A stretch of 22,957 bases of DNA, from IMG/VR virus record IMGVR_UViG_3300050122_000002, positions 1-22,957 of that record, one strand, 5' to 3'. Under the pieces are notes generated by a model, which was not told the DNA's origin, did no database searches, and saw nothing but the letters and a program-made list of their open reading frames with translations. Positions 1 through 22,957 of the stretch are shown piece by piece. The translations under genes and the position numbers were made by a program. The DNA comes from a virus. How positions within the stretch are numbered: the stretch's first letter is position 1; every line of letters starts with the position of its first letter.

Positions 1-2
1 AA

Positions 3-302: not shown

Positions 303-535
303 GATATAGGCGCGCAGAAGAGGAAATGCTTGCAGAGCCCACGCCGGTGATGTATTCCAAGCGCCAGATTGCCTTGCGCGACGGCGTGCGAAGCAGTTTT
401 CCATGCTGGCGCGGGTCAAGTCCGTTTGACTTCCGTAACGGTTGGACACGCTTAGGTGATTTCTTTGCTGAGGGATACTACCCGCGTGACGAAATGAAAG
501 AATTGGTGCATAATCGTTTTGGGGTCAACATATAA
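299..535 (+). CDS. Small phage protein of unknown function
   Basis: This 78-aa product is not recognised. It is charged, with R/E-rich ends (RYRRAEEEM at residues 2-10), and aromatic in the middle (FPCWRGSSPFDFRNGW), with no membrane segment, signal peptide or obvious metal site. Reality is supported by context: it begins in the ATGA that ends the methyltransferase and its TAA shares a base with the portal ATG (TAATG at 533-537), leaving no gap on either side. It lies where some phages carry terminase-associated or DNA-modification accessory genes, but no function can be assigned. Confidence 0.7.
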   Translation: MRYRRAEEEMLAEPTPVMYSKRQIALRDGVRSSFPCWRGSSPFDFRNGWTRLGDFFAEGYYPRDEMKELVHNRFGVNI

Positions 536-2079
536 TGCTTACCGAACCAGAGACCACCGCCCAAGAAAAGACTCGTGATCGTGTCCGCCGTTACCGCGAG
601 AGGAAACGTAAAGGTAACGAACTTGCAACACAGAGAATCAGCCCGTCGGCAGTTCGGTTGGCTCTTGAGGAACCAATTGAACGCGTCCACTACCCCATCA
701 GGATCCCCGTGATACCGAAGGGAGTAGTGCCGCAAGGGACAACGGCTCAAGTGGCAATGGACTCCGCCCCGGCCTATGAATGCGCTCGGCTGGCAATGGA
801 TGCTGGGCCTCAGTTCGGTTCACAACTCTATGCGTACAGCAATATTGAAGGCTTTCCCGGATACCCGTACTTGATGCTCTTAGCTTTGCGCTCGGAATAC
901 CGCAACATGGCGACCGCGCTGGCTACAGAACTGACGCGCAAGTGGATTAAATTCAACAGCACAGACACCGAGGACGAATCGACCAAGACGAAGATCACCG
1001 AGATTGAGCAGGCGTTCACTGCGCTTGGGATTCAGGGCATCATCCGCAAGGCTGCCGAGCATGATGCGTTCTACGGGACAGGCCAGATTCTCATCAATAT
1101 CAAGGGAGCGGATCTAAAGACTCCGCTCATCATTGACCCGCGCACAGTCAAGAAAGACAGCCTGATTGGATTCAAGAACGTTGATCCGATCTGGACCACG
1201 CCGTTGATGTACAACTCCCTTACGCCTTCCAGCCCAAACTTCTACAGGCCGGATAGCTGGTGGGTGATGGGTGAGCATTGGGACGCATCGCGGATAATAG
1301 TGACCATCACCCGCGAAGTACCGGACATATTCAAGCCCGCGTTCAACTTCTCCGGCATGAGTCTTTCGCAACTTGCCGAGCCTTATGTAAATAATTGGCT
1401 ACGGACTCGGCAGAGCGTTTCGGATCTCATCAACAACTTCTCTATCGTTGTGCTCAAGACGGCCATGGACCAGGTGCTCACGGGGGGAGATGATGGTTCT
1501 AACCTGTTTGCCCGAATCAAACTGTTCACTGCCACGCGGAGCAATAAGGGCGTGATGGCGCTGGATAAGGACCGCGAGGAGCTTGAGCAGACTGCCGTTC
1601 CCTTGGGCGGGTTGCATGAACTCCAATCACAGGCGCTAGAGCAGCTTTGCGTCGTGTCGAGGGAACCTGCAACCGTTCTGACGGGCATCACTCCATCAGG
1701 GTTCGGCAACGTGGCCGAGGGCGAGGTTCGCATCTGGTACGACTACATCCACGCCCAGCAAGAGGCACACTGGCGCAGCGCGATAGACAAGATGTTTAAG
1801 ATCGTCCAGATGTCGATGTATGGGAAGATCGACCCTGAAATCACGTTTGAATTCATCCCGCTCTACGAAATGACCGAAGAGCAGGAATCGACCATCCGCG
1901 TCAATGACAGCATCCGGGCCGGGAACCTGATTGACAGGGGCGTTATCGACTCTCAAGAGGAGCGCGAGCGGCTGGCACGTGATCCAGAGTCGGGGTATCA
2001 AGGCATCGATATTTCCAAGGAGATTGCTCCGCCAGACGAAGCGGAGGAGCAGGCGCAACTTGGAAGGGGAACAGCATGA
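535..2079 (+). CDS. Phage portal protein, DUF1073 family
   Basis: The 514-aa product matches the DUF1073-type portal family (PF06381). The clearest signature is GITPSGFGNVAEGEVRIWYDY near residues 382-402, followed by a Q-rich helix (HAQQEAHW). The stretch with FRPDSWWVMG-like and SRIIVTITREVPD sequence is also typical. Portals form the dodecameric ring at the capsid vertex through which DNA is packaged and to which the neck attaches. The first ~30 residues are unusual: a very basic TRDRVRRYRERKRKG segment precedes the family-like region. An internal ATG at 757 would remove it but has no clear ribosome binding site, whereas the ATG at 535 is tied to the upstream stop by TAATG. The C-terminus is acidic and Q/E-rich (PPDEAEEQAQL). 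Confidence 0.92.
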   Translation: MLTEPETTAQEKTRDRVRRYRERKRKGNELATQRISPSAVRLALEEPIERVHYPIRIPVIPKGVVPQGTTAQVAMDSAPAYECARLAMDAGPQFGSQLYAYSNIEGFPGYPYLMLLALRSEYRNMATALATELTRKWIKFNSTDTEDESTKTKITEIEQAFTALGIQGIIRKAAEHDAFYGTGQILINIKGADLKTPLIIDPRTVKKDSLIGFKNVDPIWTTPLMYNSLTPSSPNFYRPDSWWVMGEHWDASRIIVTITREVPDIFKPAFNFSGMSLSQLAEPYVNNWLRTRQSVSDLINNFSIVVLKTAMDQVLTGGDDGSNLFARIKLFTATRSNKGVMALDKDREELEQTAVPLGGLHELQSQALEQLCVVSREPATVLTGITPSGFGNVAEGEVRIWYDYIHAQQEAHWRSAIDKMFKIVQMSMYGKIDPEITFEFIPLYEMTEEQESTIRVNDSIRAGNLIDRGVIDSQEERERLARDPESGYQGIDISKEIAPPDEAEEQAQLGRGTA

Positions 2080-2219
2080 ACAATAACGACACATTCATTT
2101 TGCGCAAGCCAAGGCCGCTGAGGAAGCTGGAAGTGGTTGACATTCACCTACTCGTCAAAGCGACACATCCCATGCTCGGCTTGCCGCCGAAAACTGAGCC
2201 ATGCAAGTCAGCAAAGTAA
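2076..2219 (+). CDS. Tiny basic ORF between portal and head protein genes
   Basis: An ATG at 2076 overlaps the portal TGA by 4 bases (ATGA) and opens a 47-codon frame ending in TAA at 2217-2219. The product is basic at its N-terminus (MNNNDTFILRKPRPLRKLEV) and has LGLPPKTEPCK near the end. It overlaps the start of the next gene by 19 bases. Without it there would be a 121-base gap in an otherwise gapless block, which supports it. The family is not recognised. It may mainly carry ribosomes to the downstream start. Confidence 0.55.
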   Translation: MNNNDTFILRKPRPLRKLEVVDIHLLVKATHPMLGLPPKTEPCKSAK

Positions 2220-3001
2220 AGGCAATCCGCGCTATCTGGCCCAATGCCGGTATCCGGCAGCGGTATCAGCGACGCATGACCGCTCTCATAAGGGAGATGG
2301 CCGATTCTGTGGAGTATTGGCTACAGGCCCAGCGCAAGGCCGCGCCGCCAGTCCTGGCAACTGACTCAACCCCCGCAGAGCAGATGCAGTTTGAATTTAG
2401 GAAGTTGGCCGAACGCTGGCAGGGCAAGTTTGACGACATGGCTCCTAAAGTGGCCGACTCATTCCTAAAGAATCAATTCAGGGGCACCAGCGCGGCTATG
2501 AGGATGGCTCTACGCGAGGCTGGCTGGTCGATTGAGTTCACTATGACCCCGGCCATGCGGGATGCGTTTGAGGCGTCACTGGCGGAGAATGTGGGGTTAA
2601 TCAAGTCCATACCGGCGCAATACCTGCACGAGGTTGAGGGCATCGTGATGCGGAACTATGCAGCGGGCCGTGATCTCAAGTCAATGGCGGCGGAGATTCG
2701 GGCGCGTTACCACGTGGCGGCGAACCGGGCTGTGCTGATCAGCCGGGACCAGGCAAACAAGAGTTCAGCCGTGGTACAAAGAGCCAGACAGCTTGAAATC
2801 GGGATCAAGAAAAGTATTTGGATGCATAGTCATGCAGGTAAGGAACCACGTCGATCTCATGTGGCAATGAATGGTAAAATATATGAAGTAGACAAGGGAA
2901 TGTATGATCCAGACGTGAAGGCGTTTATCTTCCCGGGTCAGTTGATAAACTGCCGCTGCCAGTCGAGATCAGTTCTCCCATGGACCCTGGTGGAGAAATA
3001 G
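2201..3001 (+). CDS. Phage head morphogenesis protein, SPP1 gp7 / Mu gpF-like
   Basis: The product is 266 aa. The C-terminal third carries the Phage_Mu_F (PF04233) signature: a helix with SRDQANKSSAVVQRAR (about residues 181-196), then IWMHSHAGKEPRRSHVAMNGK with its conserved R-x-S-H, and finally FPGQLINCRCQSR, the diagnostic P-G-x-x-x-N-C-R-C motif. The N-terminal half is helical and charged. Proteins of this family are minor head components associated with the portal, or that enter the head, in SPP1 and Mu. It follows the portal as expected. Its TAG at 2999-3001 directly abuts the stop codon of the convergent minus-strand cassette, with no spacer and no visible terminator. Confidence 0.9.
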   Translation: MQVSKVKAIRAIWPNAGIRQRYQRRMTALIREMADSVEYWLQAQRKAAPPVLATDSTPAEQMQFEFRKLAERWQGKFDDMAPKVADSFLKNQFRGTSAAMRMALREAGWSIEFTMTPAMRDAFEASLAENVGLIKSIPAQYLHEVEGIVMRNYAAGRDLKSMAAEIRARYHVAANRAVLISRDQANKSSAVVQRARQLEIGIKKSIWMHSHAGKEPRRSHVAMNGKIYEVDKGMYDPDVKAFIFPGQLINCRCQSRSVLPWTLVEK

Positions 3002-3553
3002 TCACCGTTTGACGCAAACATCTTTAGCGATTGCTCCTATAACCGAGTGAGACGGAGCTAGTTGCCAACCTGAAGAGGATGTTCCGGTCTCATCGTTATC
3101 GATGAAAAACATAAAGTGCCCAGCGCAATCGAAGATCATCGGTTTGGCGACGATGTCTTCACCTTGTATTTGTCCCATAACTATGACGCCCAATTGTGTG
3201 CGCCGAGTAGTACCTATATTTGCTCTGAAATATTCGCCATTCGCGGCTATATACACTTTCCAGACAGATTTCGGCTGTGGATGCTTCTTTCTCTCCGCCG
3301 CACAGATGTTTGCCTGCTCTGGAGAGAACGCTGTGGGGTTATACCCGGACGTGCAAGCCGCTACGGAGCATTGTTCGTCCGCTTTGTCTCTATTCGGTCG
3401 GAACTGTGAATCTAAAACGTAGCATTCAGATCTGGCCGCTTCCTGTGAATGGCGTTGCTCTAGAGGCCAGGACAGACTGTTTTGTGCAAAGCAGACAGAA
3501 GCTGCAATTAGCGCCAATCCAGTGAAGATTGAAAATATCTTATTGCTTTTCAT
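3002..3553 (-). CDS. Exported cysteine-containing protein (moron candidate)
   Basis: A 183-aa protein starts at the ATG complementary to 3551-3553, chosen because GGAGG lies 5 bases upstream and because this start exposes a signal peptide: MKSNK, a hydrophobic core IFSIFTGLALIAASV and a CFA-QN cleavage site near residue 23. An upstream in-frame start at 3583 would bury it. The mature part has six cysteines (44, 62, 67, 84, 143, 180), an even number suited to disulfides in the periplasm. The C-terminal pattern FDCAGHF..W.LAPSHS..DVC loosely recalls surface-adhesin-E-like small exported proteins; this is only a weak resemblance. It is the last gene of the opposed minus-strand cassette, starting in an ATGA overlap with the 27-aa peptide. 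A role in altering the lysogen envelope or excluding other phages is inferred from context. Confidence 0.8.
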   Translation of the reverse strand: MKSNKIFSIFTGLALIAASVCFAQNSLSWPLEQRHSQEAARSECYVLDSQFRPNRDKADEQCSVAACTSGYNPTAFSPEQANICAAERKKHPQPKSVWKVYIAANGEYFRANIGTTRRTQLGVIVMGQIQGEDIVAKPMIFDCAGHFMFFIDNDETGTSSSGWQLAPSHSVIGAIAKDVCVKR

Positions 3554-3633
3554 TTGTGCCTCCAGCACTCGATAGCCCACCATGCAAGCACGGCAAGCGC
3601 GATGAATACCGCGTTGGCGAAAATCTCAGTCAT
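3550..3633 (-). CDS. 27-aa single-pass membrane peptide
   Basis: The start codon is complementary to 3631-3633 and the TGA to 3550-3552; the 27 residues are MTEIFANAVFIALAVLAWWA followed by IECWRHK. Residues 4-21 form one hydrophobic helix with a double Trp and a basic C-terminal tail, suggesting a C-in membrane orientation. GAAGAAAG lies just upstream as a possible ribosome binding site. The gene overlaps the 44-aa gene before it by 8 bases and the exported-protein gene after it by 4 bases (ATGA), which argues that the three are translated together. Such peptides can be regulators of a membrane partner, small toxins or holin-like peptides; nothing here decides. Confidence 0.6.
   Translation of the reverse strand: MTEIFANAVFIALAVLAWWAIECWRHK
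3559..3563 (-). promoter_or_regulatory. Ribosome binding site of the exported protein gene
   Basis: GGAGG on the minus strand lies 5 bases before the ATG at 3553. It decides the start of the exported protein in favour of the form with an intact signal peptide, and it sits inside the 27-aa peptide gene. Confidence 0.75.
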
Positions 3634-3760
3634 GCGCTTTCTTCTGTTTCGCCCGCCACTCCCGCAGGTACCTGGACTGGCATATAGGGCAGCGTTGGCG
3701 TTTCTTGCTCGTTTTGAGCAAGTGTCCATTGATGCAGCGGATTCGACGTAATGGCGGCAT
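3626..3760 (-). CDS. 44-aa zinc-finger protein resembling a homing-endonuclease tail
   Basis: The ATG is complementary to 3758-3760 and the TGA to 3626-3628. The 44 residues include C9-x-N-G-H13 and C24-P-I-C27 followed by a basic helix (RYLREWRAKQKK). This C-x-NGH-L-x-T ... C-x-I-C arrangement is the same as the C-terminal finger of GIY-YIG endonuclease 1 at 7448-8437 (CKNGHLRT ... CVICHRQWAQRNK) and is common in phage HNH/GIY-YIG nucleases and small phage proteins. It probably binds one zinc ion and nucleic acid. It may be a solo regulator of the cassette or the remnant of a nuclease. It is the first gene of the minus-strand cassette. No good ribosome binding site is visible, and the promoter candidate would make the transcript nearly leaderless. 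Confidence 0.55.
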   Translation of the reverse strand: MPPLRRIRCINGHLLKTSKKRQRCPICQSRYLREWRAKQKKAHD

Positions 3761-3768
3761 GACCAAAC

Positions 3769-3796
3769 AGTACACGTCTTGCCTTTCTTTTGTCAA
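3769..3796 (-). promoter_or_regulatory. Promoter candidate for the minus-strand cassette
   Basis: Read on the minus strand, a perfect TTGACA (complement of 3791-3796) is followed after 16 bases by TGTACT (complement of 3769-3774, 4 of 6 matches to TATAAT). Transcription would start near 3762, two bases before the first cassette ATG. This gives the cassette its own expression, independent of the plus-strand late transcript. It is seen by eye only. Confidence 0.4.
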
Positions 3797-3840
3797 CTCC
3801 TATCTTGCGCTCGTGTTTTCATAGTGCAATTCTCAAATCC

Positions 3841-5175
3841 ATGGAGATTGCGTGCGACGCAGCCTTAAAGAATCGGCGATACGACGCGGACGGGCGTTTG
3901 CACATTCTGCGTACGCCCATCTCCAAGGCGACGGTCAATCCCTATTACGGACGCGAAATACCAGACGCAGACAAGCTGGGCCTGGAGCCGGAACGGGTGT
4001 ACTATCTGCTGCGCGATCCGGGGGAACTGGCGAAAGCAGCCTCGTCGTTTGCGCGGAATCAGTTGATGTTCGTTCATACTCCGGTGAGTGCGGACGATCC
4101 GAAGCAGGAATCAGTAGCCGGGACAATCGGCTCGGAAGTGGAATTTCTTGCGCCGTACCTGATAGCGGACATTTGCGTTTGGGATGCGGAAGCAATCGCC
4201 GGAGTGGAGACGGACACGGTACGGGAACTATCAGCCTCGTATCGCTACCGGGCCGACATGACGCCGGGGATGTACGAGGGACAGCGGTACGACGGTGTGA
4301 TGAGGGACATTCAGGGCAATCACGTAGCATTGGTTAAAGCAGGCCGCGCCGGGTCAGATGTGATGGCAGCGGACAGCAAACTGGAGATGAAGATGGAAAC
4401 GAAATTCGGCAAAGCTCTTTACGCAATTCTCTGTGCTGCATCGCCCAAGCTGGCAGCGGACTCCGCTCTCAAGCCCCTGGTGATCGGCCTGACGCGCAAG
4501 CAATGCGATTTGCGGGCGCTCGAACCCAAACTGCTCGCCATGGACGCCGAGCTTCGCAAGCCGGAAACCCTGGCCGCGATGCAAGCTGCCAAGGACGCGG
4601 AATCCGAAGAGGAGACCGAGGCTGAGAAGAAGGCCCGCGAAGAGAAAGAAAAGGCCGCAAAGGACAAAAAGGCGAAGGACGGCAAGCGCGGCAAGGACGA
4701 ATCTTTCGGGGAATGGGCGAAGGAAGAAGAGGACGAGTCCGACCACAAGGCCAAGGACGCCGAAGAGGAGTCCGAAGAGGAGTCCGAGGAAGAGCGCAAG
4801 GAACGCCTCGAAAAACGCGCCAAGGACAAAAAGGCCAAGGATTGCTCAGCCAAGGACGAGGAAGAGAAAGCTGAGGACAAGATGAAGCACGCAATGGATG
4901 AGTTCAAAGCTGACCTTCGCGCCGCCGACGAAGCGCGCCGCGCTGTTCGCACGGTGGTTGGGGACGTGCTGGCTCAGGATTCGGCGGAAGGCATCTACAG
5001 CTTCGCCCTTGACCAGATGAAGGTTGACCACAAGGATGTGGTTGGCGTGCCGGCTCTTCGGGCGCTTTTCAATCTCGCACAAGTGGCTTCCAAGCCCGCA
5101 GTGCGGCAAGCGTTCGATGCGGTTTCAGTGGAAGAGAAGTTCACCGGCGCAGGCCGTCAAATTCAGGTGATGTAA
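3841..5175 (+). CDS. DUF2213 phage protein, putative protease-scaffold fusion
   Basis: The product is 444 aa. Residues 1-175 match DUF2213 (PF09979): GRLHILRTPISKATVNPYYG, LGLEPERVYYLLRDP, then RELSASYRY with Ser131 and IQGNHVALVKAGRAG with His161. The ELS-x-x-Y and N-H-x-A-L-V elements resemble the Ser and His of HK97/herpes-type prohead proteases, so a maturation protease role is inferred. Residues ~250-345 are an almost pure K/E/D region (coiled-coil or disordered), and ~350-430 a helical charged tail, as expected for a fused scaffold. It sits directly before cement and capsid genes, where protease and scaffold belong. I chose the ATG at 3841 because family members start at this point; TTG codons at 3790 and 3805 would extend it into the cassette promoter, and no start has a good ribosome binding site. 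Confidence 0.85.
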   Translation: MEIACDAALKNRRYDADGRLHILRTPISKATVNPYYGREIPDADKLGLEPERVYYLLRDPGELAKAASSFARNQLMFVHTPVSADDPKQESVAGTIGSEVEFLAPYLIADICVWDAEAIAGVETDTVRELSASYRYRADMTPGMYEGQRYDGVMRDIQGNHVALVKAGRAGSDVMAADSKLEMKMETKFGKALYAILCAASPKLAADSALKPLVIGLTRKQCDLRALEPKLLAMDAELRKPETLAAMQAAKDAESEEETEAEKKAREEKEKAAKDKKAKDGKRGKDESFGEWAKEEEDESDHKAKDAEEESEEESEEERKERLEKRAKDKKAKDCSAKDEEEKAEDKMKHAMDEFKADLRAADEARRAVRTVVGDVLAQDSAEGIYSFALDQMKVDHKDVVGVPALRALFNLAQVASKPAVRQAFDAVSVEEKFTGAGRQIQVM

Positions 5176-5185
5176 GGAGAAGATC

Positions 5186-6364
5186 ATGGGAAGTCCTTTG
5201 ATTGGTAGTTTTCAGACGCGAGTCAACCTCAATAACCCTCTTGGGGTTGAGGGAGACTTTGCCAGCGCAAATCCTCGTGCTACTGCCCTCACTCCTGATG
5301 GCGGAGCGTTCGTTGCCGGTCCTGGTGGCGTAACCGTTGGAAAGTTCGCATGGGTTGCCCCAGACGGTCGCACGGTAAATAGTTTCGGCGTCGCTGGCGT
5401 TGCTCCTTCCGGGTTCGTTCATCGCGACCAGCAGGGCCTTTTGACGCAATACTTGCAGGCGGCTGGGATGCTCATTCCTCCGGGCTTCCCTGTCACGCTG
5501 ATGGTTGCGGGTGATTTCTTGGCCAAGAATGCGGGCACTAGCTCCAGCACGGTTGGCGAAGCCATCTATGCACTGTACGCCGATGGCTCGGTTCTTCCAG
5601 GCGTGGGGTCCTTGCCTGCCGTTCCTTCGGCCATCACCGCCGCGCTCGGATCGACCAACACTGGAGCTCTTGGTGCTACCTTCACGGCCAGCGCGCATGC
5701 GGGCGACTCGACACGCATCGACGTAACCGCAGTGACGGGGCTGCTCAGCATCGGAGATACAATCGCGAACGTGTCCGGCATTGCCGGAAGCCAAACGATT
5801 ATATCTCAGGATACCGGCGGCACAACGGGCGGCGCGGGGACCTATGTGCTTAGCGGCACAAATACCCTCAGCGCGGCTACCTGCACATGCTTTGGCAACG
5901 TGGTCAAGATTACTGCATCGGCTGGACTCGTATCGGTTGGCGATTACATCGCTTCCGCCGCATCCGGCTTCCCGGTAGGCGCAACGGTGACGGGAATTGT
6001 CAGCGGCGGGGGAGTGGCCACGGCTGGTGTCTACACCATCAGCGTTCGCGGTGCCTCTTACGTGGCTAGCGCAACCGGCATGACCACCTATGGCACAGTG
6101 CTGGATGTGACCGCAGTTACCGGCACACTGCTTCCTGGAATGCCAATCACGGCCACGGGCGGAATCCCGGCTGGTACGAGCATTGCTGGATTCATCAGCG
6201 GCACGTATGGCGGGGTTGGGCTCTACAGCCTCAACATTCCGGGGACCGCTTACACCGCCTCCGGCACTGTGGTAATCACAGCCCAGGGCATCATCACCAA
6301 GTTCACTGCCAAGTCTGTCGCCGCTGTTGGCGAACTTGTGCAAATCTCAACGTGGGGAAATTAA
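5186..6364 (+). CDS. Structural cement (capsid decoration) protein with inserted repeats
   Basis: The product is 392 aa. The N-terminal part (NNPLGVEGDFASANPRAT, AGPGGVTVGKFAWV) matches the phage structural cement protein family (Gp24-like) usually encoded between DUF2213 and DUF2184 genes. The family's C-terminal strand reappears at residues 370-391 (ITKFTAKSVAAVGELVQIST). Between them, residues ~178-363 hold three ~60-residue repeats, so this copy is longer than a bare cement domain. The repeats are Gly/Thr/Ser-rich and predicted beta, and probably project from the capsid surface. Cement proteins sit on capsid capsomers and stabilise the shell after expansion. AAGGAG precedes the ATG at 5186 (AAGGAGAAGATC). 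Confidence 0.8.
   Translation: MGSPLIGSFQTRVNLNNPLGVEGDFASANPRATALTPDGGAFVAGPGGVTVGKFAWVAPDGRTVNSFGVAGVAPSGFVHRDQQGLLTQYLQAAGMLIPPGFPVTLMVAGDFLAKNAGTSSSTVGEAIYALYADGSVLPGVGSLPAVPSAITAALGSTNTGALGATFTASAHAGDSTRIDVTAVTGLLSIGDTIANVSGIAGSQTIISQDTGGTTGGAGTYVLSGTNTLSAATCTCFGNVVKITASAGLVSVGDYIASAASGFPVGATVTGIVSGGGVATAGVYTISVRGASYVASATGMTTYGTVLDVTAVTGTLLPGMPITATGGIPAGTSIAGFISGTYGGVGLYSLNIPGTAYTASGTVVITAQGIITKFTAKSVAAVGELVQISTWGN
5717..6274 (+). repeat. Three protein-level repeats inside the cement protein
   Basis: Repeats cover residues ~178-235, 239-299 and 305-363 (5717-5890, 5900-6082, 6098-6274). The shared pattern is hydrophobic-x-VTAVTG-x-L-x-x-G-x-x-I, then GIP-x-G or similar, I-S-G, and G-x-Y-x-L-S. 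They have diverged at the nucleotide level, so the duplication is old. Confidence 0.7.
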
Positions 6365-6373
6365 GGAGCTGAC

Positions 6374-7423
6374 ATGGACCGTCATCTTGAAGCAGTATCG
6401 CAGAAGTGGGGAATCAATTTCATGGGGGTTGATGCCCAGTTGCAGCAGACCGAAAAGGAACGCGGTGGTCGGCTGGCTATGGATGCTCAACCCGCTTTGG
6501 TGACAGTCTCGAATAGCGGCATCCCCGCGTTCTTGTCTACCTACATCGACCCCAAGGTAATTGAAGTTCTTGTGGCCCCGATGAAGGCTACTGAGATCGT
6601 CGGTGAGGAAACCAAGAAGGGTGACTGGACTCTCGAAACAGCAATGTTCCCGATTGTCGAGTCTACCGGCATGGTTTCTTCCTACGGTGACTACGCTGAG
6701 TCAGGCATCGCTGGCGCGAACGTGAACTGGGTCCAACGCCAGTCGTATACCTACCAGGTCATCACTCAGTGGGGTGAGCGTGAACTGGAAAAGATGGGCC
6801 TTGCGCGCATCGACTGGGCTAACCGACAGAGAATCGCTTCGGTTCTGACGCTGAACAAGTTCCAGAATAAGAGCTACTTTTTCGGCATTCAAGGGTTGGC
6901 GAACTACGGGCTGCTAAACGATCCGTCGCTCTCGGCTCCGATTGCTCCCATTCCCGCAGTCACCAATCTGGTCACTTGGGCGCAGAAAGCAACCGACACG
7001 AATGGCGCGGTCTGGGTCTATAACGACATCAAGGCGCTGTACGGCCAGCTTGTCGCCCAAGCCAACGGCCTTGTGGAACTCGACATGGCTTCGCCGATGA
7101 CTTTGGCAATGTCGCCAGCCTCTCAGGTGTATCTCACCTTGACGAACAGTTATAACGTCAACGTGCAGGATATGCTCAAGAAAAACTTCCCGAAGATGAA
7201 GATCGAGACGGCACCCGAATACGCAACCACGTCGGGCAATCTCGTGCAGTTGATCGCGGATGAAATGCAGGGGCAGAGGACGGCAACCACCGCCTTTACC
7301 GAGAAGCTGCGTGCGCATCCGATCAAGATTGAGCTGTCGAGTTTCAAGCAGAAGACCAGCCAAGGCACATGGGGGACTTTGCTCTTCCGTCCATTCTTAT
7401 TGGCCTCCCTTTTGGGCGTTTAG
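6374..7423 (+). CDS. Major capsid protein, DUF2184 family
   Basis: The 349-aa product matches DUF2184 (PF09950), the capsid family that accompanies DUF2213 and cement genes. Typical elements are IPAFLSTYIDPKVIEVLVAP (about residues 50-69), ETKKGDWTLETAMFPIVE, YGDYAESGIAGANVNWVQRQ, NKSYFFGIQGLANYGLLNDP, and the C-terminal TWGTLLFRPFLLASLLGV. It would adopt the HK97 fold and form the shell. AAGGAG at 6363-6368 precedes the ATG at good spacing. Directly downstream a homing endonuclease gene is inserted instead of the next head gene, a common site for such genes because capsid sequences are conserved targets. Confidence 0.92.
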   Translation: MDRHLEAVSQKWGINFMGVDAQLQQTEKERGGRLAMDAQPALVTVSNSGIPAFLSTYIDPKVIEVLVAPMKATEIVGEETKKGDWTLETAMFPIVESTGMVSSYGDYAESGIAGANVNWVQRQSYTYQVITQWGERELEKMGLARIDWANRQRIASVLTLNKFQNKSYFFGIQGLANYGLLNDPSLSAPIAPIPAVTNLVTWAQKATDTNGAVWVYNDIKALYGQLVAQANGLVELDMASPMTLAMSPASQVYLTLTNSYNVNVQDMLKKNFPKMKIETAPEYATTSGNLVQLIADEMQGQRTATTAFTEKLRAHPIKIELSSFKQKTSQGTWGTLLFRPFLLASLLGV

Positions 7424-7441
7424 CGAAATTTCTGCTAGAAT
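7412..7441 (+). promoter_or_regulatory. Extended -10 promoter candidate before endonuclease 1
   Basis: TG-C-TAGAAT at 7433-7441 is a 5 of 6 match to TATAAT with the extended TG. A weak TTGGGC at 7412-7417 lies 18 bases upstream. The expected start is at or next to the ATG at 7448, so the message would be leaderless. Free-standing homing endonucleases often have their own promoters; this one is judged by eye only. Confidence 0.35.
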
Positions 7442-7447
7442 AGGTAC

Positions 7448-8437
7448 ATGGACAATTTCTATGTGTACATGTACCTGAGAGCGAACGATTCAGAACACGG
7501 CAAAGCGGGATCACCGTACTACATTGGGAAGGGAAAAGGCATGAGGGCATTCGACAAAAATCATCGTTGCAAGCCCCCTTCCGATTTCGCTCGCATCGTG
7601 TTCGTAGTGCGTGATGTTTCAGAATCCGCCGCTCATGCAGAAGAAAAGCGTCTCATTGCCATCTATGGACGAATCGACAATGGAACCGGGTGTCTTGCAA
7701 ACTTGACAGACGGAGGCGAGGGGCAGTGCGGACGTATTATGCCTCCCGAAGAGCGGCGTCGCAAATCCGAATGGATGAAGGCGCATCCGAACGAGGGCAA
7801 CAGACTTCTTGCTGTAACGTGTCACACGCCAGAAGCAAGAGCCAAGGCCGCCGCTAGCAATCGAGGCCAAAAACGCACACCTGAATACTGTAATGCCGCG
7901 AGTGAGCGCATGGCAGGCAAGTCCGCACCTTGGGCCATTGGCAATAAATACTCGCTCGGTAACACGCATACCGAGGAATGGAAAGAGGAAGCCAGGGAGC
8001 GCGGCAAGAATCGTATCGCGCCTTCTACTTTCACAATGGCTGGCCGTCATCACCGCGAAGAAAGCAGAGAGAAAAGCCGGGAATCAAATCTAAATGCTTG
8101 GACTCCAGAGAAACGGGCCGAGCATGGCGAGATGATGAAAGCTCTCCCGAATCTTCATATCCCCATTCACAACACGCCCCACAGTCAAGCGTCAATTGAA
8201 AAGATGCGGCAATCTCACTCGGGGAGTAAAGCGTCCGAAGAGACGAAAGCAAAGATGGCTATTTCTCAGCGGTGCAGGGTTCGAGAAGTTATCACGCATT
8301 GCAAGAACGGCCATTTGCGCACGCCAGAGAATATCCGAGCAAACGGGAAAGGTTGCGTGATCTGTCATAGGCAGTGGGCCCAACGCAACAAGGTAATTCA
8401 ACAGGAGCCGCCATTGCGCGGCCTCAGCGCGGCCTAG
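7448..8437 (+). CDS. GIY-YIG homing endonuclease 1 with NUMOD3 motifs and zinc finger
   Basis: The product is 329 aa. The GIY-YIG nuclease domain covers residues 1-~95: YVY at 5-7 stands for GIY, SPYYIGKGKGMRAF at 22-35 contains YIG and Arg33, HAEEKRLI supplies the metal-binding Glu, and LANLTDGGEG ends the domain with Asn85. Further on come repeats of the NUMOD3 DNA-binding type, such as HTEEWKEEARERGKN and SEETKAKMAISQR. The C-terminus is a zinc finger, C285-KNGH ... C303-VIC. Such enzymes cut a target in phages lacking the insertion and copy themselves by repair. The gene stands free between capsid and the next head gene, with a 24-base gap upstream that holds a promoter candidate; its flanks look intact. 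Confidence 0.88.
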   Translation: MDNFYVYMYLRANDSEHGKAGSPYYIGKGKGMRAFDKNHRCKPPSDFARIVFVVRDVSESAAHAEEKRLIAIYGRIDNGTGCLANLTDGGEGQCGRIMPPEERRRKSEWMKAHPNEGNRLLAVTCHTPEARAKAAASNRGQKRTPEYCNAASERMAGKSAPWAIGNKYSLGNTHTEEWKEEARERGKNRIAPSTFTMAGRHHREESREKSRESNLNAWTPEKRAEHGEMMKALPNLHIPIHNTPHSQASIEKMRQSHSGSKASEETKAKMAISQRCRVREVITHCKNGHLRTPENIRANGKGCVICHRQWAQRNKVIQQEPPLRGLSAA

Positions 8438-8459
8438 TGCCGCTCCTTGAAAGGGAACC

Positions 8460-8819
8460 ATGGCAAAGGAAACAGTTCTCATTGGTTGCCGTCTACCAAA
8501 CGGCCTTGTGTTGCATCACCCCAAGAACCGCAACCTGACAGTGACGCTTGCGGGTGTTTACGAGGCGAAGACTGAAAGCGGCCTCTATCTTCCGCCCAAG
8601 ATGTTTTCTACCACGCCTGTCGATGCTGAATTTTGGGCGGAGTGGAAAGCGGCTTATGAGGGTTTTCCGCCATTGAAAACGCGGGCTGTATTCGAGGCGC
8701 ATTCTGAGCAGGAAGCGCAGTCGAAGGCGAAGAACGCGGAGAAGGTCAAGACTGGGTTTGAGCCGATGAGCAAGACAGCCAAGATTGATGGAGTTACGCT
8801 GGAGCCGGCCAATTCGTGA
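8460..8819 (+). CDS. Conserved phage head-region protein, function unknown
   Basis: The product is 119 aa. The N-terminus (ETVLIGCRLPNGLVLHHP) and the segment TPVDAEFWAEWKAAYEGFPPLKTRAVF resemble a small family of unnamed proteins encoded between capsid and DUF4054 connector genes in related phages; this is from memory of the family pattern. The C-terminal third is K/A/E-rich with no membrane segment or catalytic motif. AAAGGG precedes the ATG by a suitable distance, and the gene ends in a GTGA overlap with the next. Before the insertion of endonuclease 1 it would have followed the capsid gene directly. A minor head or connector role is inferred. Confidence 0.75.
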   Translation: MAKETVLIGCRLPNGLVLHHPKNRNLTVTLAGVYEAKTESGLYLPPKMFSTTPVDAEFWAEWKAAYEGFPPLKTRAVFEAHSEQEAQSKAKNAEKVKTGFEPMSKTAKIDGVTLEPANS

Positions 8820-9286
8820 TAACTGTTTTCAATCCCGCCGTTTTCGTTGGCCGCTATCCTGAGTTTACAGAGGCCTACAACGTTAATCCGTCGCTGTTCT
8901 CTTCGATGTTTGCGGAAGCTGGCCTATACCTCAATAACACAGATTGCAGTGTGGTGCAGGACGTGAATATTCGCGGTGCGCTGCTCAACATGGTAACAGC
9001 GCACATTGCGTTTCTTGGCGGAATACTCACCGCAGACGGCCAGCCCCGTCCCGTGGGGCGCGTCAGCGCGGCCAATGAAGGGGCGGTGGGCGCTACCTTC
9101 GACTTTACGCCAGCGACGCCTGGAAGCGGCGCATGGTTCGCGCAAAGCCAGTATGGAGCGGCGTTCTGGCAAGCTACGACCTGTTATCGGGGAATGAAGT
9201 ATTTTGCAAACCCGACGCGGGTGGAAGGGTTCTTAGGTATAGGTGCACTTCCTGGAAGGGGCGTCGACGGTTACGCTCTCGATTGA
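8816..9286 (+). CDS. Head-tail connector, DUF4054 family
   Basis: The 156-aa product starts with GTG in a 4-base GTGA overlap. It matches DUF4054 (PF13262): F-x-G-R-YPEF near residues 10-17, a helix ending in GLYLNN, RGALLNMVTAHIAFL (54-68), then GRVSAANEGAVGATFDF and WFAQSQYGAAFWQAT. DUF4054 proteins have the all-helical fold of head-tail adaptors such as HK97 gp6 and bind under the portal. Position between capsid and neck genes agrees. Confidence 0.85.
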   Translation: MITVFNPAVFVGRYPEFTEAYNVNPSLFSSMFAEAGLYLNNTDCSVVQDVNIRGALLNMVTAHIAFLGGILTADGQPRPVGRVSAANEGAVGATFDFTPATPGSGAWFAQSQYGAAFWQATTCYRGMKYFANPTRVEGFLGIGALPGRGVDGYALD

Positions 9287-9419
9287 CGCTTCCGAATTGG
9301 AGCGCGATCTGGAGCGAATCGAGAATGAAGAGTTGGAGTTACCGACGGTTTCGGCAGTCAAGGTTTCGTGTGATGGGGTTTTCGAGGAACAGGTGCCGAT
9401 TTGGCTACCAGAGCAATAA
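9243..9419 (+). CDS. Small acidic ORF between connector and tail-completion genes
   Basis: A GTG at 9243 opens 58 codons to the TAA at 9417-9419. The product (MHFLEGASTVTLSIDASELE at the start, VPIWLPEQ at the end) is acidic, with a charged ELERDLERIENEELE helix at about residues 18-32. It overlaps the connector gene by 44 bases and fills the space between it and the ATG at 9422 that would otherwise be empty. The ribosome binding site is poor (AGG close to the start). No family is recognised. Confidence 0.5.
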   Translation: MHFLEGASTVTLSIDASELERDLERIENEELELPTVSAVKVSCDGVFEEQVPIWLPEQ

Positions 9420-9421
9420 AG

Positions 9422-9922
9422 ATGTCCGATGCGGTGACAGCCAAGCTCCTCGACTTGGCAAAGCGGGCGCACGGAACAGTTCAGGTGGGCTTCATCGACA
9501 GCGATCAGGCTCCTATTGCGTTCTGGAATGAGTTTGGACACAAGGGCAGGTTCCCTGCACCGCCGCGCCCCTTCTTCCGCACAATGGTATCGAACGAGTC
9601 TCCCAAGTGGCCTCAGATGATGGCTGGAGAACTGAAGCGGTCGAAGATGGACGGTCATCGGACTCTGGCTTTTATGGGCGAAGAGATTGAAGGCGCTCTC
9701 AAGCAAAGCATCATTGACCTGACAGCTCCTCCGCTCTCTCGCACCACTCTCCGTTTGCGCCTCAAGTTTGGCAACAATCCACAGAACATTCGTGCGCGTG
9801 ATGTAGTGCAGGCTCAGAGAGACGTTGCCGCGGGTGAGCCGGTTGCATCCGGTACACAGGCCAAGCCGCTTATCTGGACGGGAACTATGCTCTCCAGCAC
9901 CTCATATAAGGTGGCCGACTGA
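9422..9922 (+). CDS. Tail completion / neck protein, HK97 gp10-like
   Basis: With the ATG at 9422 the product is 166 aa; a TTG at 9401 with AGGTG upstream would add seven residues and overlap the previous ORF. The recognisable part is VQVGFID ... AFWNEFGHKG followed by PPRPFFRTMV and PKWPQMM, the N-E-F-G and P-R-P-F-F-R pattern seen in many phage neck proteins of the HK97 gp10 / Mu G-like type. The C-terminal GTMLSSTSYKVAD (L-x-x-S-x-x-Y) is also typical. These proteins cap the head-proximal end of the tail. The gene ends in a TGATG overlap with the next. Confidence 0.75.
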   Translation: MSDAVTAKLLDLAKRAHGTVQVGFIDSDQAPIAFWNEFGHKGRFPAPPRPFFRTMVSNESPKWPQMMAGELKRSKMDGHRTLAFMGEEIEGALKQSIIDLTAPPLSRTTLRLRLKFGNNPQNIRARDVVQAQRDVAAGEPVASGTQAKPLIWTGTMLSSTSYKVAD

Positions 9923-10293
9923 TGGATTTGCGAGGAATTGCGAACGGAATATCAGATACGATCAATCCCAATATCTCTGTCACTGTGAAGGCATCGACCG
10001 GATATGCTATCGGATCTGGCCTCAAGCAGGTTCCTAGCTATGCCGCTCCCGTTACTGGATTTGCTCAAGTCCAGGCGTTGACCGCTGCTGATCTTCGCCA
10101 CCTTGACGGCCTCAACATTCAGGATGCCACGCAGTCGATCATTCTTCGCGGTCCATTGAACGCCGTTGTGCGGGCGCATTCCAAGGGCGGTGATCTTGTT
10201 ACCATCGGAACTGACACTTTTCTTACCGTCGCAGTATTGGAGCAGTGGCCGCTGTGGACTCGCGCGGCACTCGTTATGCAGGTGCCAGCATGA
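9922..10293 (+). CDS. Conserved neck-region protein, function unknown
   Basis: The product is 123 aa. The pattern MDLRGIANGISDTINPN ... VQALTAADLRHLDGLNIQD, then LRGPLNAVVRAHSKGGDLV and VLEQWPLWTRAALVMQ, is a conserved but unnamed family in the neck region of similar phages, recalled as a pattern rather than by a name. It is small, beta-rich and soluble. A head-closure role is inferred from the size and the place between tail-completion and neck-terminator genes. It is joined by TGATG upstream and ATGA downstream. Confidence 0.7.
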   Translation: MDLRGIANGISDTINPNISVTVKASTGYAIGSGLKQVPSYAAPVTGFAQVQALTAADLRHLDGLNIQDATQSIILRGPLNAVVRAHSKGGDLVTIGTDTFLTVAVLEQWPLWTRAALVMQVPA

Positions 10294-10604
10294 GTATAAA
10301 GATTAGAGTGGCGACAGATGGAATGGCGATATTCGAATGCCCCGGATGTGGAGAAAGCCATGGTATTCCAGTGCGTGGAGATCATGTGTGGGGATGGAAT
10401 GGAAGCGTTGAATCACCCACCTTCACGCCGTCGATATTGGTTAGATACCCAGCAAATCCGAACGCTATTGAGGAGTTCAAGGAATGGCGCGCTGAACGGC
10501 GATGCCACAGCTTTGTAACCGATGGCCGTATCCAATTCCTTGACGATTGCACGCATTCTCTCTCGGGGAAGACGGTGGACCTGCCGGATTGGGGAAGTGC
10601 ATGA
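10290..10604 (+). CDS. DUF6527-family zinc-binding protein
   Basis: I start this at the ATG at 10290, in an ATGA overlap with the previous stop, rather than further upstream, giving 104 aa. The sequence has FECPGCGESHGIP (C17, C20, H24), WNGSVESPTFTPSIL, RCHSFVTDGRIQFLDDCTHSLSGKTVDLPDW (C72, H73, C87, H89). This C/H pattern with PTFxPSI is the DUF6527 signature and should hold one or two zinc ions. The family occurs in phages and has no known function. Its presence inside the neck operon is odd for a non-structural-looking protein, and it may be a moron. Confidence 0.75.
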   Translation: MSIKIRVATDGMAIFECPGCGESHGIPVRGDHVWGWNGSVESPTFTPSILVRYPANPNAIEEFKEWRAERRCHSFVTDGRIQFLDDCTHSLSGKTVDLPDWGSA

Positions 10605-11119
10605 GCGCACCAGTCCAATACATTTCTTCAATCGCCATCGATACGGTAATCGAGGCGCTGGGTGCATTCATCCAACCCTTTGTGGGAACTACGCAGATCA
10701 TCCGCGCCCAGGCAAACCGCGTAGCGATGCCTGTCGGCGCATTCGTCGAGCTTACTGAAATATCCAGCATCGATCTTGAAGTTCCTCGCCAGTGGTATGA
10801 CGGCGCAAATGCGCAGAAGGATATTATCGGTCCAAAGCGCATCATGATTCAGTCCGACTTCTACGGTGAGTCGTCGGGCGATTGGTGCGCAGCGGTCAAG
10901 ACGGTTTGGCGCACGTCTTACGCAACAGAACAATTCGCTGCTGGTATTGCCCCGCTTTACTGTGACGATGGACGCGAAGTTCCGCTGGTCACAGGTGAGG
11001 AGCAGTATGAACGCAGGTGGGAACTGAATATGATGCTTCAATACAACCCTGTGATCTGTGTACCGCTCCAGAGTGCTGATATACTGAGCATGAACATCGT
11101 TAAGGGTGTGACAGCATGA
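10601..11119 (+). CDS. Phage neck terminator protein, LIC_12616-like
   Basis: Starting at the ATG at 10601 (ATGA overlap), the product is 172 aa. It fits the LIC_12616 / gp12-like neck terminator pattern: IIRAQANRVAMPVGAFVELT, a KRIMIQSDFYG strand, then APLYCDDGREVPLVTGEEQYERRW and MLQYNPVICVPLQSA. Such proteins form the tail terminator ring at the head-proximal end of contractile tails. It lies directly before the sheath in related phages; here endonuclease 2 intervenes, beginning in the ATGA that ends this gene. Confidence 0.8.
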   Translation: MSAPVQYISSIAIDTVIEALGAFIQPFVGTTQIIRAQANRVAMPVGAFVELTEISSIDLEVPRQWYDGANAQKDIIGPKRIMIQSDFYGESSGDWCAAVKTVWRTSYATEQFAAGIAPLYCDDGREVPLVTGEEQYERRWELNMMLQYNPVICVPLQSADILSMNIVKGVTA

Positions 11120-11727
11120 CAGGCCACATTTATCTAATCCGCAACCTCCTTAACAGCAAGGGCTATGTTGGCAAGACGGAGTTGTCTGTCGATCACAGAT
11201 ATGCTCAGCATCTCAGAAACGCATCCGGTTTTGTCAATACTGCACTCTATCGCGCAATACGCAAGCATGGGGAAGGAAAATTTTCCGTATCTGAGGTAGC
11301 GTCGTGCGATTCTTCTCTTTTGAACGATCTTGAGAAACACTACATCAAATTCTACGGAACGTACGCCCCGACAGGTCACGGATACAACATGACTAAAGGT
11401 GGAGAGGGTCAACTTGGATTGGTTCACTCCGAAGAGACGAAGATGAAAATGTCAGCGTCTCACATGGGGCATATCGTCACTACGGAAACAAAACTTAAAA
11501 CATCCCTAGCTAATAAAGGCAAAAAGCCTTCTAAGGCGTGCATGGATGCTGTAATCCTTGCCAATACCGGGAAAGTTCATTCTGCGGAAACGAAAGCTAA
11601 ATTATCGGCTATCCGCAAGGGGAAAAAACGTGGCCCGATGTCGGAAGGTTCCAAAGAGAAGCTCTCAACTGCAAAAAAGGGTCAAGTCCCTTGGAATAAG
11701 GGAATGACGCATAAGGAGAAACAATGA
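11116..11727 (+). CDS. GIY-YIG homing endonuclease 2 with NUMOD3 repeats
   Basis: The product is 203 aa. The nuclease domain at residues 1-~95 has HIYLIRN (IY at 5-6), KGYVGKTE (YVG at 17-19), Arg28, DLEKHYIKFY with Glu73, and HGYNMTKGGEGQ with Asn91. Residues ~104-190 contain four or five NUMOD3-type repeats such as HSEETKMKMSASHMG, HSAETKAKLSAIRKGKK and SEGSKEKLSTAKKGQ, which bind the target along the DNA. The gene starts in the ATGA of the neck terminator and ends in the ATGA that starts the sheath. Its last codons carry AAGGAG, which serves the sheath ATG. Codon use is more A-rich than in neighbours, as expected for a mobile gene. Confidence 0.88.
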   Translation: MTGHIYLIRNLLNSKGYVGKTELSVDHRYAQHLRNASGFVNTALYRAIRKHGEGKFSVSEVASCDSSLLNDLEKHYIKFYGTYAPTGHGYNMTKGGEGQLGLVHSEETKMKMSASHMGHIVTTETKLKTSLANKGKKPSKACMDAVILANTGKVHSAETKAKLSAIRKGKKRGPMSEGSKEKLSTAKKGQVPWNKGMTHKEKQ

Positions 11728-20970: not shown

Positions 20971-21852
20971 ATGCAGCTAAGCAACGCACCCGCACAGATT
21001 ATTAAGGCATGGGCAACAGCGGGCAGTAAGAATAACCCGATCCCCGTTCCATCTCAGGTCGGAATAACTCCCGGCGCGGCATCCTGGACTGACGGATTTC
21101 CGCCGCTTTGCGATACCCCGCTTATATCGGGTGGTATCCCGCCTTCGATGCAGGATATGAACGGCGGCCTATTCCAGATGTCAGCCGTTGATGTGTGGAT
21201 GTGCGCGGGCGGTGGTTTCCCCTACAACTCTTCTTTCCAAACAGCCATTGGCGGCTATCCCAAAGGCGCACGCGTCCTCATGGCCAGCGGTAACGGCTAC
21301 TGGGTAAGCACGGTAGACAATAATATGACTGACCCCGATACGGGCGGTGCGGGATGGGCCAGTGCGGATGAGAACGCGATCACAGTTCTTACCGGAGATG
21401 TGACAGCAACCGGCCCAGGAAGTGCGGCGGCAACCCTCGCGGCAAGCGGAGTGACGGCGGGGAGCTATACCGGGGCGAACATCACTGTCGATGTGAAAGG
21501 CAGGGTGACAGCCGCAGCGAGCGGCGGGAGTGGGTTTAATTGCACACGAATAGATAAAACCGGAACTTATTTGTCTGGAGTCACCCACACAAACAGTACG
21601 GGAGCTGCCGTCTGTGAAGAAGTTACTTTGGCTGGAGGCGCAGGCGGTGCCGCCGGCGTGGATTATTTGTTGGTATCGACAATTGCCGGTATTGCAGGAC
21701 CACAAGCTTCGATTACTAATGATTCAGAGGGGTGGAATTCTGTTACATTTTGGGTACCAGCAGGCGCTACTTTCTCTGTTACAGTGTCGTCGAACAATGG
21801 GGGCTACCCGGCTTCAATCAGCAAATGGACAGAAGTCTCATTTAGCCTTTAA
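20971..21852 (+). CDS. Tail fibre protein
   Basis: The 293-aa product has GGAGAGAC before its ATG. The N-terminal ~115 residues (GSKNNPIPVPSQVGITPGAA, WTDGFPPLCDTPLISGGIPP, SMQDMNGGLFQMSAVDVWMC, YPKGARVLMASGNGYW) are the conserved attachment part of fibres in this phage type. Then comes a stalk, LTGDVTATGPGSAAATLAAS with GVTAGSYTGANITVDVKGRV, and a C-terminal ~100-residue beta domain that probably binds the receptor. It has no signal peptide, unlike the next gene. Placed after DUF2612, as expected. Confidence 0.82.
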   Translation: MQLSNAPAQIIKAWATAGSKNNPIPVPSQVGITPGAASWTDGFPPLCDTPLISGGIPPSMQDMNGGLFQMSAVDVWMCAGGGFPYNSSFQTAIGGYPKGARVLMASGNGYWVSTVDNNMTDPDTGGAGWASADENAITVLTGDVTATGPGSAAATLAASGVTAGSYTGANITVDVKGRVTAAASGGSGFNCTRIDKTGTYLSGVTHTNSTGAAVCEEVTLAGGAGGAAGVDYLLVSTIAGIAGPQASITNDSEGWNSVTFWVPAGATFSVTVSSNNGGYPASISKWTEVSFSL

Positions 21853-21856
21853 GGAG
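21851..21856 (+). promoter_or_regulatory. Ribosome binding site of the exported fibre-like gene
   Basis: AAGGAG lies five bases before the ATG at 21862 and overlaps the stop region of the fibre gene. It fixes the start, and so the signal peptide, of the next product. Confidence 0.8.
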
Positions 21857-21861
21857 TCACG

Positions 21862-22957
21862 ATGAAGCGGATTTGGATATCTTTGTTTTTACTCGGCAGC
21901 GTGATCTTTCCTGCTATGGTCTATGCGCAGACGAGCGGCACCACACCTCCGCCTCCGCCAGTATGCGGATCGACAAACGCTGGGGCGATCTACACGAGCA
22001 CTGGCACAAGTCCAGCGACGGTTTATACGTGCTCCTACTACAATCTAGCGTGGCAGTGGGTTGTTAATCCGAGTTATGGCGGATTAGTTTCCTATCCCAC
22101 AGTCCCATCAACTTGCTCTGGAACGTTGCCTGTTTTCTTGGCTGGATGGCCTAATACTAAGATGTATGTTTGCGTAAGCGGATTCCCGCAGGCCATTGGA
22201 GGATCTGGTACTTTTACTTTTCCCGGTGCAAATACGATAGCTATAGCCAACACGGATAACACGGGATGGCGCACACCGCTTTACAGTGATGTTACGGCTC
22301 TCTGGGCTACCTGCACGGCGGGATATCTCAAGTGGGATGGGACCTGTTCTACGCCAGGCGGTTCTGGAACCGTCAATTCCGGCACAACCGGCCAGATCGC
22401 TTATTATCCTGCAAATGGCGCAGCGGTATCCGGCGAGAATACGGTGCCAGTCAACGCAGGCGGCACAGGTGCAACCACGGCAGCAGGGGCACTGGCGAAC
22501 CTGGGCGCGGTCTCAACCGCAACAACGGTTAACGGCCACGCATTAAGCAGCAACGTCACAGTTTCCGCTTCAGACTTGACCACTGGCACATTGCCTCACG
22601 CGCAGTTGCCCACACTGCTTTCCGGCGACATACCAAACAACGCAGCGAATACCACAGGCAACGCGGCCACAGCCACCTATGCGACTAGTGCGGGAACTGC
22701 CACAGACCCGACGAAACTTCCCCTCACTGGCGGAACGCTGACCGGCGCACTCAACGGCACCAGCGCATCGTTCTCAGGCACCGTCGCGGCTGGCAGTGAG
22801 ACGCTTGGATCGCCATTGCTTCCGGCGTCGGGCGGCACAGGTGCAACCACGGCAGCAGGGGCACTGGCGAACCTGGGCGCGGTCTCAACCGCAACAACGG
22901 TTAACGGCCACGCATTAAGCAGCAACGTCACAGTTTCCGCTTCAGACTTGACCACTG
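21862..22957 (+). CDS. Fibre-like protein with Sec signal peptide (3' end outside window)
   Basis: The frame is open to the window end (365 codons seen). Residues 1-22 form a signal peptide: MKRIW, a hydrophobic core ISLFLLGSVIFPAMV, and VYA-Q as cleavage site. A Pro-rich linker (TTPPPPPVC) follows. Residues ~35-165 have six cysteines (35, 57, 85, 104, 151, 162) and Trp/Tyr-rich sequence. From ~165 on the sequence is a fibre stalk: GTVNSGTTGQIAYYPANGAA, then NAGGTGATTAAGALANLGAV and LPLTGGTLTGALNGTSASFS, all well known from tail fibres. The start is fixed by AAGGAG. Virion proteins normally stay in the cytoplasm, so an export signal here is unexpected. It could be an exported decoy or receptor mask, or the N-terminus may act as a hydrophobic anchor. 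The gene contains the 127-bp repeat. Confidence 0.8.
   Translation, partial: MKRIWISLFLLGSVIFPAMVYAQTSGTTPPPPPVCGSTNAGAIYTSTGTSPATVYTCSYYNLAWQWVVNPSYGGLVSYPTVPSTCSGTLPVFLAGWPNTKMYVCVSGFPQAIGGSGTFTFPGANTIAIANTDNTGWRTPLYSDVTALWATCTAGYLKWDGTCSTPGGSGTVNSGTTGQIAYYPANGAAVSGENTVPVNAGGTGATTAAGALANLGAVSTATTVNGHALSSNVTVSASDLTTGTLPHAQLPTLLSGDIPNNAANTTGNAATATYATSAGTATDPTKLPLTGGTLTGALNGTSASFSGTVAAGSETLGSPLLPASGGTGATTAAGALANLGAVSTATTVNGHALSSNVTVSASDLTT
22459..22585 (+). repeat. 127-bp perfect direct repeat, copy 1
   Basis: Identical over 127 bases to 22831-22957 at an offset of 372 bases, a multiple of three, so both copies encode the same 42 residues (GGTGATTAAGALANLGA ... ASDLTT). The left boundary is a clear mismatch (A at 22458, G at 22830). 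Confidence 0.95.
22831..22957 (+). repeat. 127-bp perfect direct repeat, copy 2, cut by window end
   Basis: Second copy of the repeat at 22459-22585. Its right end is the end of the window, so the true length may be greater. No silent differences between copies are seen, which argues for a recent duplication or gene conversion, or an assembly effect. Confidence 0.95.

Follow-up and report, generated by a model that had tools for sequence, protein, structure and literature searches.

Tail-fibre-like proteins of many soil phages, including two cultured Acidobacteriota phages, very probably carry removable export signals and paired cysteines

Introduction

Is a phage protein that is built like a tail fibre, and that starts like a secreted protein, sent out of the host cytoplasm, and what would it do if so? 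Tail fibres are generally taken to be cytoplasmic proteins. The question is raised by the last gene of an IMG/VR virus record of 22,957 bases, the whole of which was analysed and is called the window below. A first-pass annotation, made from the sequence alone, had proposed that the product of this gene may be exported and could serve as a decoy or in superinfection exclusion, or that its signal may tether unassembled fibres to the membrane. We followed up these proposals computationally. In an earlier phage survey, absent signal peptides were taken as support for the phage origin of diversified binding proteins (PMC6199706).

Results

The window carries the modules for head, tail and baseplate of a phage that has a contractile tail and a DUF3383-type sheath; among isolates, Pseudomonas, Pantoea and Bcep781-like myophages come nearest, with 38-41% identity. 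Two plus-strand genes that separate head from tail genes resemble free-standing GIY-YIG-type homing endonucleases (7448-8437 and 11116-11727). Because related genes occupy other positions in relatives (for example, L002:5854-6576), these genes appear to be mobile within the phage group. A small conserved protein, FECPGCGESHGIPV..., is encoded between tail genes in the window (10254-10604, plus strand) and at the lysis end in contig G004 (49044-49376). The head module also holds a lone minus-strand gene (3002-3553) for a protein of 183 aa with a signal peptide, MKSNKIFSIFTGLALIAASVCFA^Q, and no Pfam match; its product is a probable exported moron.

The fibre-like protein encoded at the end of the window (SP-fibre, Table 1) starts MKRIWISLFLLGSVIFPAMVYA^QTSGTTPPPPPVC and continues with a four-cysteine domain, two further cysteines and stalk repeats. 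Its cysteines are at residues 35, 57, 85, 104, 151 and 162, and its stalk matches phrog_23426 (tail protein, E=7e-9) and phrog_1591 (tail fiber, E=8e-6), so that the six cysteines, proline-rich linker and stalk repeats described at first are all present. The N-domain matched neither a Pfam nor a PHROG family, hence no known virion-docking domain was found. The gene is truncated, since the contig breaks off within a stalk repeat of 127 bp that is exact. A repeat of this length ending at the contig end is a sign of an assembly-graph break, as expected for an assembler with k=127. The 3' end of the gene is thus unreadable in the window.

Table 1. Features of the fibre-gene region at the end of the window
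Feature	Position	Strand	Basis or remark
Fibre-1, ordinary fibre gene, 293 aa	20971..21852	+	phrog_12796 N-terminal domain (E=3e-40), alignments; without signal peptide
Shine-Dalgarno AAGGAG	21851..21856	+	5 nt before ATG at 21862; overlaps fibre-1 stop TAA (21850-21852)
Fibre-like protein, very likely exported (SP-fibre)	21862..22956	+	365 codons visible, 3' end cut by contig end
Predicted Sec signal peptide, residues 1-22, predicted cleavage A22^Q23	21862..21927	+	rule-based call, orthologs
Conserved mature N-domain	21928..22200	+	73-91% identical to window in 12 relatives; Cys 35, 57, 85 and 104 invariant (alignment)
Proline-rich linker TPPPPPV	21940..21960	+	sequence and alignment
Third cysteine pair C151/C162, before stalk	22312..22347	+	sequence
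Tail-fibre stalk repeats, GGTGATTAAGALANLG type	22366..22957	+	phrog matches and stalk search
Exact 127-bp repeat, copy 1, within stalk	22459..22585	+	sequence
Exact 127-bp repeat, copy 2, end = contig end	22831..22957	+	sequence

Signal peptides were called by a rule asking for a basic start, a 9-residue uncharged hydrophobic core and small residues at -3/-1. On the 37 genes of a 49-kb E. coli stretch, it caught all 7 exported proteins and called no cytoplasmic one, while two membrane proteins were falsely called; applied to the window, the rule picks out 2 of 29 ORFs. Residues 1-22 of the SP-fibre contain two basic residues, a 9-residue core with a mean Kyte-Doolittle value of 2.7 and a V-Y-A^Q site. 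The protein thus displays the features of Sec export and signal peptidase I cleavage, namely a basic n-region, a hydrophobic core and small residues at -3/-1 (MKRIW...VYA^Q). The AAGGAG, MKRIW start, core and VYA-Q site of the first-pass annotation were all found in place. The +1 residue is Gln, and the lipobox cysteine expected there in a lipoprotein is absent.

The gene directly upstream, fibre-1, consists of a conserved N-terminal domain (phrog_12796), likely the virion-docking part, and a short variable tip; homologs occur in 131 isolate phages. The overlap between the fibre-1 stop codon and the ribosome-binding site of the SP-fibre gene recurs in most relatives, and inspection of the sequence upstream of the SP-fibre gene revealed no promoter-like site of its own. 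Because of both features, SP-fibre expression should be late and driven from the structural operon. Pfam searches of 8 related contigs revealed no tyrosine integrase, and lysogenic conversion was rejected on this ground. Diversification by a DGR was likewise rejected, as 10 contigs contained no reverse transcriptase.

We then collected relatives in two scans of viral contigs, one giving L002-L012 and the other, with fibre-1 as query, L014-L037. Where the same fibre-1 was present and the start of the next gene was visible, that gene carried a signal peptide at 18 of 19 loci (the window, L013-L015, L017, L019, L021-L024, L026-L031, L033 and L035), some of which are close relatives and do not represent 18 independent events. 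One of them, L023, is the same as L005 and reads MRAIRGLIIAIGLMLCAGLAQA^Q once its start is corrected from the ORF call. At the lone exception, L037, a small membrane protein rather than a signal-bearing fibre follows fibre-1. By contrast, none of seven proteobacterial phages with a homologous fibre-1 has a signal on the following gene, and in two of them, PA-1 and RCIP0114, this gene encodes an ordinary signal-less tailspike. The premise that tail fibres lack Sec signals would fail for the phages studied here if their genes encode virion fibres.

The mature domain of the window SP-fibre had no match in 84,980 bacterial and archaeal species genomes, and a fibre-1 search of the same genomes returned one small contig in a 'Patescibacteria' MAG, which is probably misbinned. 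Among isolate phages, neither the window protein nor those of L011 and L136 found a match, and for L125 the matches were limited to short stretches in phages of actinobacteria.

A second contractile lineage, L067, whose gpJ is 28-29% identical to that of the window group, reveals how the gene moves. High identity to the window group is confined to two parts, the tip of fibre-1 (47-71%) and the N-domain of the SP-fibre (81-83%); the baseplate proteins are just 25-40% identical and the docking part of fibre-1 is unrelated. This distribution indicates that tip and SP-fibre travel as one cassette, independently of the docking part of fibre-1. Because they move together, the two are suggested to act on the same host surface, although plain adjacency could also explain their joint movement. 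The idea that the N-domain docks onto the tip of fibre-1 found poor support and was rejected, since the same N-domain occurs with two unrelated tip types. The cassette lies at L067:3543-7624, and the C-terminal module of its SP-fibre is shared (52% identity) with the SP-fibre of a 143-kb phage contig, L010.

Signal and mature protein evolve differently. Among 15 orthologs, mean identity was 0.32 in the signal versus 0.79 in the first 88 mature residues. Every ortholog kept the signal-like character and not the letters, which argues that the signal is more than a chance resemblance. The pair L005 and L007 is the clearest case, with 100% identical mature N-domains and 27% identical signals. Their DNA is 93-100% identical most of the way to the fibre-1 tip and again just past the cleavage site, but mostly 28-62% identical over tip, ribosome-binding site and signal, with the boundary at the cleavage site; the pair L003 and L009 has the same pattern. 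As read from these alignments, replacement of signals by unrelated, still signal-like ones is the pattern that selection for export would produce.

Export followed by pairing of all cysteines should leave a mature protein with an even number of them. To gather fibres irrespective of their N-termini, we used a stalk-only query without the signal, which found 79 loci in viral contigs, about 73 of them with a visible N-terminus. About 42 of these 73 genes bear a signal (36 at the chosen start and 6 at a later one), so that signals precede fibre stalks in other phages as well; the 31 genes without one form a natural control with the same stalk. For parity, the stalk loci were combined with the window relatives and the cultured phage Tunturi_2, near-duplicates were removed and cysteine-containing proteins retained. 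Mature signal-bearing proteins had an even cysteine number in 35 of 42 cases (p=7.5e-6), compared with 23 of 42 for the full-length sequences. An odd number within the signal was found in 18 proteins, and 15 of these turned even on its removal. Signal-less fibres and tail proteins were even in 16 of 47 cases (Fisher p=2.2e-6 against the mature signal-bearing proteins), and median cysteine density per 100 residues was 0.54 in signal-less versus 1.62 in signal-bearing proteins (p=3e-9). After strict de-duplication the counts were 31 of 35 (p=1.7e-6) and 7 of 28, respectively; in all these comparisons cleavage sites are predicted, some modules are shared between proteins, and the controls are mixed and include fibres from other hosts. 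The earlier remark that an even count fits an exported protein thus extends well beyond the window. Cysteine parity provides independent statistical evidence for signal cleavage, and hence export of SP-fibre proteins from the host cytoplasm is very likely.

In at least three types of phage, signal-bearing fibres fill the slot that follows the genes for tail tip or baseplate. These are myophages (the window group, L067 and L105, the last with three consecutive genes), podophage-like contigs (L102, L132 and G007) and a siphophage-like contig, L103, in which the gene lies between a lambda-J-like protein and a tail-fibre-assembly gene (phrog_4912). On the contig of L035 (G005, 1-10596), five consecutive signal-bearing fibre or tailspike-like genes follow fibre-1, with products of 1934, 733, 249, 251 and >359 aa.

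Among cultured phages, the lytic Tunturi_2, which infects Tunturiibacter (PMC11924767), has signals on gp12, gp13, gp14, gp16 and gp17, with 20, 10, 20, 1 and 34 mature cysteines, respectively. Of these, gp13 is given as a tail fiber, gp14 as a pectin lyase and gp17 as a virion structural protein. No common N-terminal anchor was seen among the five proteins, and a single-sequence viral scan with gp12 gave no match. Tunturi_1 carries a gp12 ortholog with an almost identical N-terminus. No signals were found on the fibres of Tunturi_3, 4 and 5, whose hosts are identical or related. Although the strain used to isolate Tunturi_1 and Tunturi_2 also yielded Tunturi_3, the latter is signal-less, indicating that the trait is a property of the phage rather than one imposed by the host.

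Tunturi_2 also provides a link to the host of the window phage. Contig G007 has a stalk 95% identical to that of the window, and the N-terminus of its second SP-fibre is 47% identical to gp12; via this connection we infer a host among the Acidobacteriota. Gln occupies +1 in 34 of 43 signal-bearing fibre proteins (the window at 21928 and L061, for example) and in 4 of 5 of those of Tunturi_2, the site-scoring rule giving Gln a small bonus; the -1 residue is A, G or S in all 43, a choice that the rule itself favours. This Q-rule has been described as Bacteroidetes-specific (PMC5837995), and on these counts Acidobacteriota may follow it too.

Pfam domains in 28 relatives include GDSL esterase (3), chitobiase-type (2), NHL/SGL propeller, pectate-lyase-like and beta-helix domains. 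The gene after the L008 SP-fibre is itself signal-bearing and encodes a laminin-G/ConA lectin domain. Neither an outer-membrane anchor family nor the C-terminal YadA-type membrane anchor of trimeric autotransporter adhesins was detected by Pfam in the 28 relatives, the window gene being truncated. The structure prediction called for at the outset was uninformative: AlphaFold models of the N-domain (pLDDT 64.5) and of the L010/L067 C-terminal module (27) were too low in confidence to interpret, and a PDB fold search with the N-domain model gave no result. A PLL-lectin match in a PDB sequence search (E=2e-5) was rejected as local, with no domain passing alone.

Discussion

Judged from sequence comparison, many soil phages, including two cultured Acidobacteriota phages, very probably encode tail-fibre or tailspike-like proteins that have a removable export signal and paired cysteines and so are sent out of the cytoplasm. 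Our preferred explanation, to which as a whole we give roughly even chances, is that the SP-fibre is an extra exported protein of this kind, made late from the structural operon. Its opening step, in which the N-terminal 22 residues would act as a Sec signal cut off before Gln23, is strongly supported; orthologs, swapped signals, cysteine parity and the contrast with signal-less fibres all bear out the export and cleavage first proposed. Pairing of the mature cysteines in the oxidising periplasm is strongly supported statistically. Folded, probably trimeric fibres would then build up in the periplasm and be freed at lysis without an outer-membrane anchor. Least certain is the final step, in which variable C-terminal modules (in relatives beta-helix, beta-propeller, GDSL esterase, chitobiase-type and lectin) would bind or degrade glycan on the host surface and so help the progeny by clearing or masking debris and exopolysaccharide; with the same low certainty, released SP-fibres may also attach to virions. 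We favour periplasmic build-up and release at lysis over a decoy or a tether because expression is expected to be late and neither a membrane anchor nor an integrase was found. A cleaved signal, moreover, does not tether. Counted against this explanation are the tail-fibre-assembly gene after the L103 SP-fibre, easier to square with a virion fibre than with a free protein, and the signal-less fibres of Tunturi_3, 4 and 5, according to which infection of that host does not depend on export.

For T4 and P22, it is classical that fibres and tailspikes can be attached to completed particles in vitro. This lends some plausibility to a second explanation, which we hold only tentatively: receptor-binding fibres or depolymerases might be Sec-exported, cleaved, folded under oxidising conditions in the periplasm and then attached, during or after lysis, to virions built in the cytoplasm, making the periplasm a second assembly compartment. 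The receptor-binding-protein slot occupied in several phage types, the usual fibre pattern of a conserved N-part and variable C-part, the assembly gene directly behind the SP-fibre of L103, and L132 and Tunturi_2, where no signal-less fibre is seen beside the tail genes, all speak for such a fibre. It is harder to reconcile with one N-domain recurring behind the divergent baseplate and unrelated fibre-1 docking part of L067, or with five Tunturi_2 proteins that share no anchor, and we know of no precedent for tailed-phage fibres maturing outside the cytoplasm. On the choice between free and virion-attached proteins, then, the L103 assembly gene would favour the virion, whereas the Tunturi_2 proteins and the L067 swap would favour free proteins.

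A surface decoy, with the exported fibre covering the receptor of an infected cell or imitating it, appears unlikely. An exported receptor-binding-like protein would suit this role, and T5 Llp sets a precedent of a phage-exported protein that blocks the receptor and spares progeny (PMC9586334). However, a late-operon gene with no promoter-like site of its own would come late for exclusion, surface display would have no route given the lack of a lipobox and of an anchor family in 28 relatives, and the 8 related contigs, in which Pfam showed no integrase, give no sign of lysogenic expression. We consider it very improbable that the SP-fibre is an ordinary virion fibre whose uncleaved hydrophobic N-terminus serves as an anchor; stalk and operon position would agree with this, but the N-terminus is the least conserved part, has been exchanged between proteins that are otherwise nearly identical and invariably ends in a signal-peptidase-like site, and cysteine parity fits only after its removal. 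A host-type adhesin or moron carried by chance, conceivable as signal-bearing tailspike-fold proteins such as Pantoea WceF exist in cells (PMC7949094), is scarcely credible in view of the fixed position behind fibre-1 at 18 loci, the near absence from 84,980 species genomes, where one small Patescibacteria MAG contig was the exception, and the presence in cultured lytic phages.

Should SP-fibres be virion parts, tailed-phage assembly would have an extracytoplasmic step; should they be free, lytic phages would direct a family of secreted or released glycan-active proteins against the host surface or matrix. The cultured pair of Tunturi_2 and Tunturiibacter makes the question testable now. Among the titles and papers seen in searches of an open-access library, none reported a recurrent class of signal-bearing tail fibres, and word searches of the Tunturi paper (PMC11924767) gave no mention of tail-fibre signal peptides.

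Several known systems share part of this behaviour. Fibres of Bcep781/Naesvirus-like and related myophages (Pantoea phage PA-1 ORF080, Klebsiella phage RCIP0114) resemble the SP-fibre in lying behind a homologous fibre-1 and in their elongated form and variable C-terminus, but have an ordinary cytosolic N-terminus without a signal peptide. Tunturi_1 and Tunturi_2 gp12-gp17 share Sec signals predicted to be cleavable, cysteine counts that are high and mostly even, and a fibre or pectin-lyase-like nature; these phages, however, are podophages with unrelated virion genes. T5 Llp, likewise exported by an infecting phage, could protect progeny from debris, but is a small acylated lipoprotein made early and not a fibre; exclusion proteins reportedly prevent phages from adsorbing to infected cells as well as to post-lysis fragments (PMC9586334). 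Porphyromonas gingivalis phages encode five genes of unknown function with Q-rule signals, host-style signal peptides that also expose Gln at +1; unlike SP-fibres, these are not reported as fibres and belong to phages integrating at tRNA-Pro (PMC10367356). Finally, WceF of Pantoea stewartii is, like the proposed SP-fibre, an exported trimeric glycan-active enzyme of tailspike fold, but it is encoded by a bacterial gene, carries a Tat signal and acts on the bacterium's own biofilm (PMC7949094).
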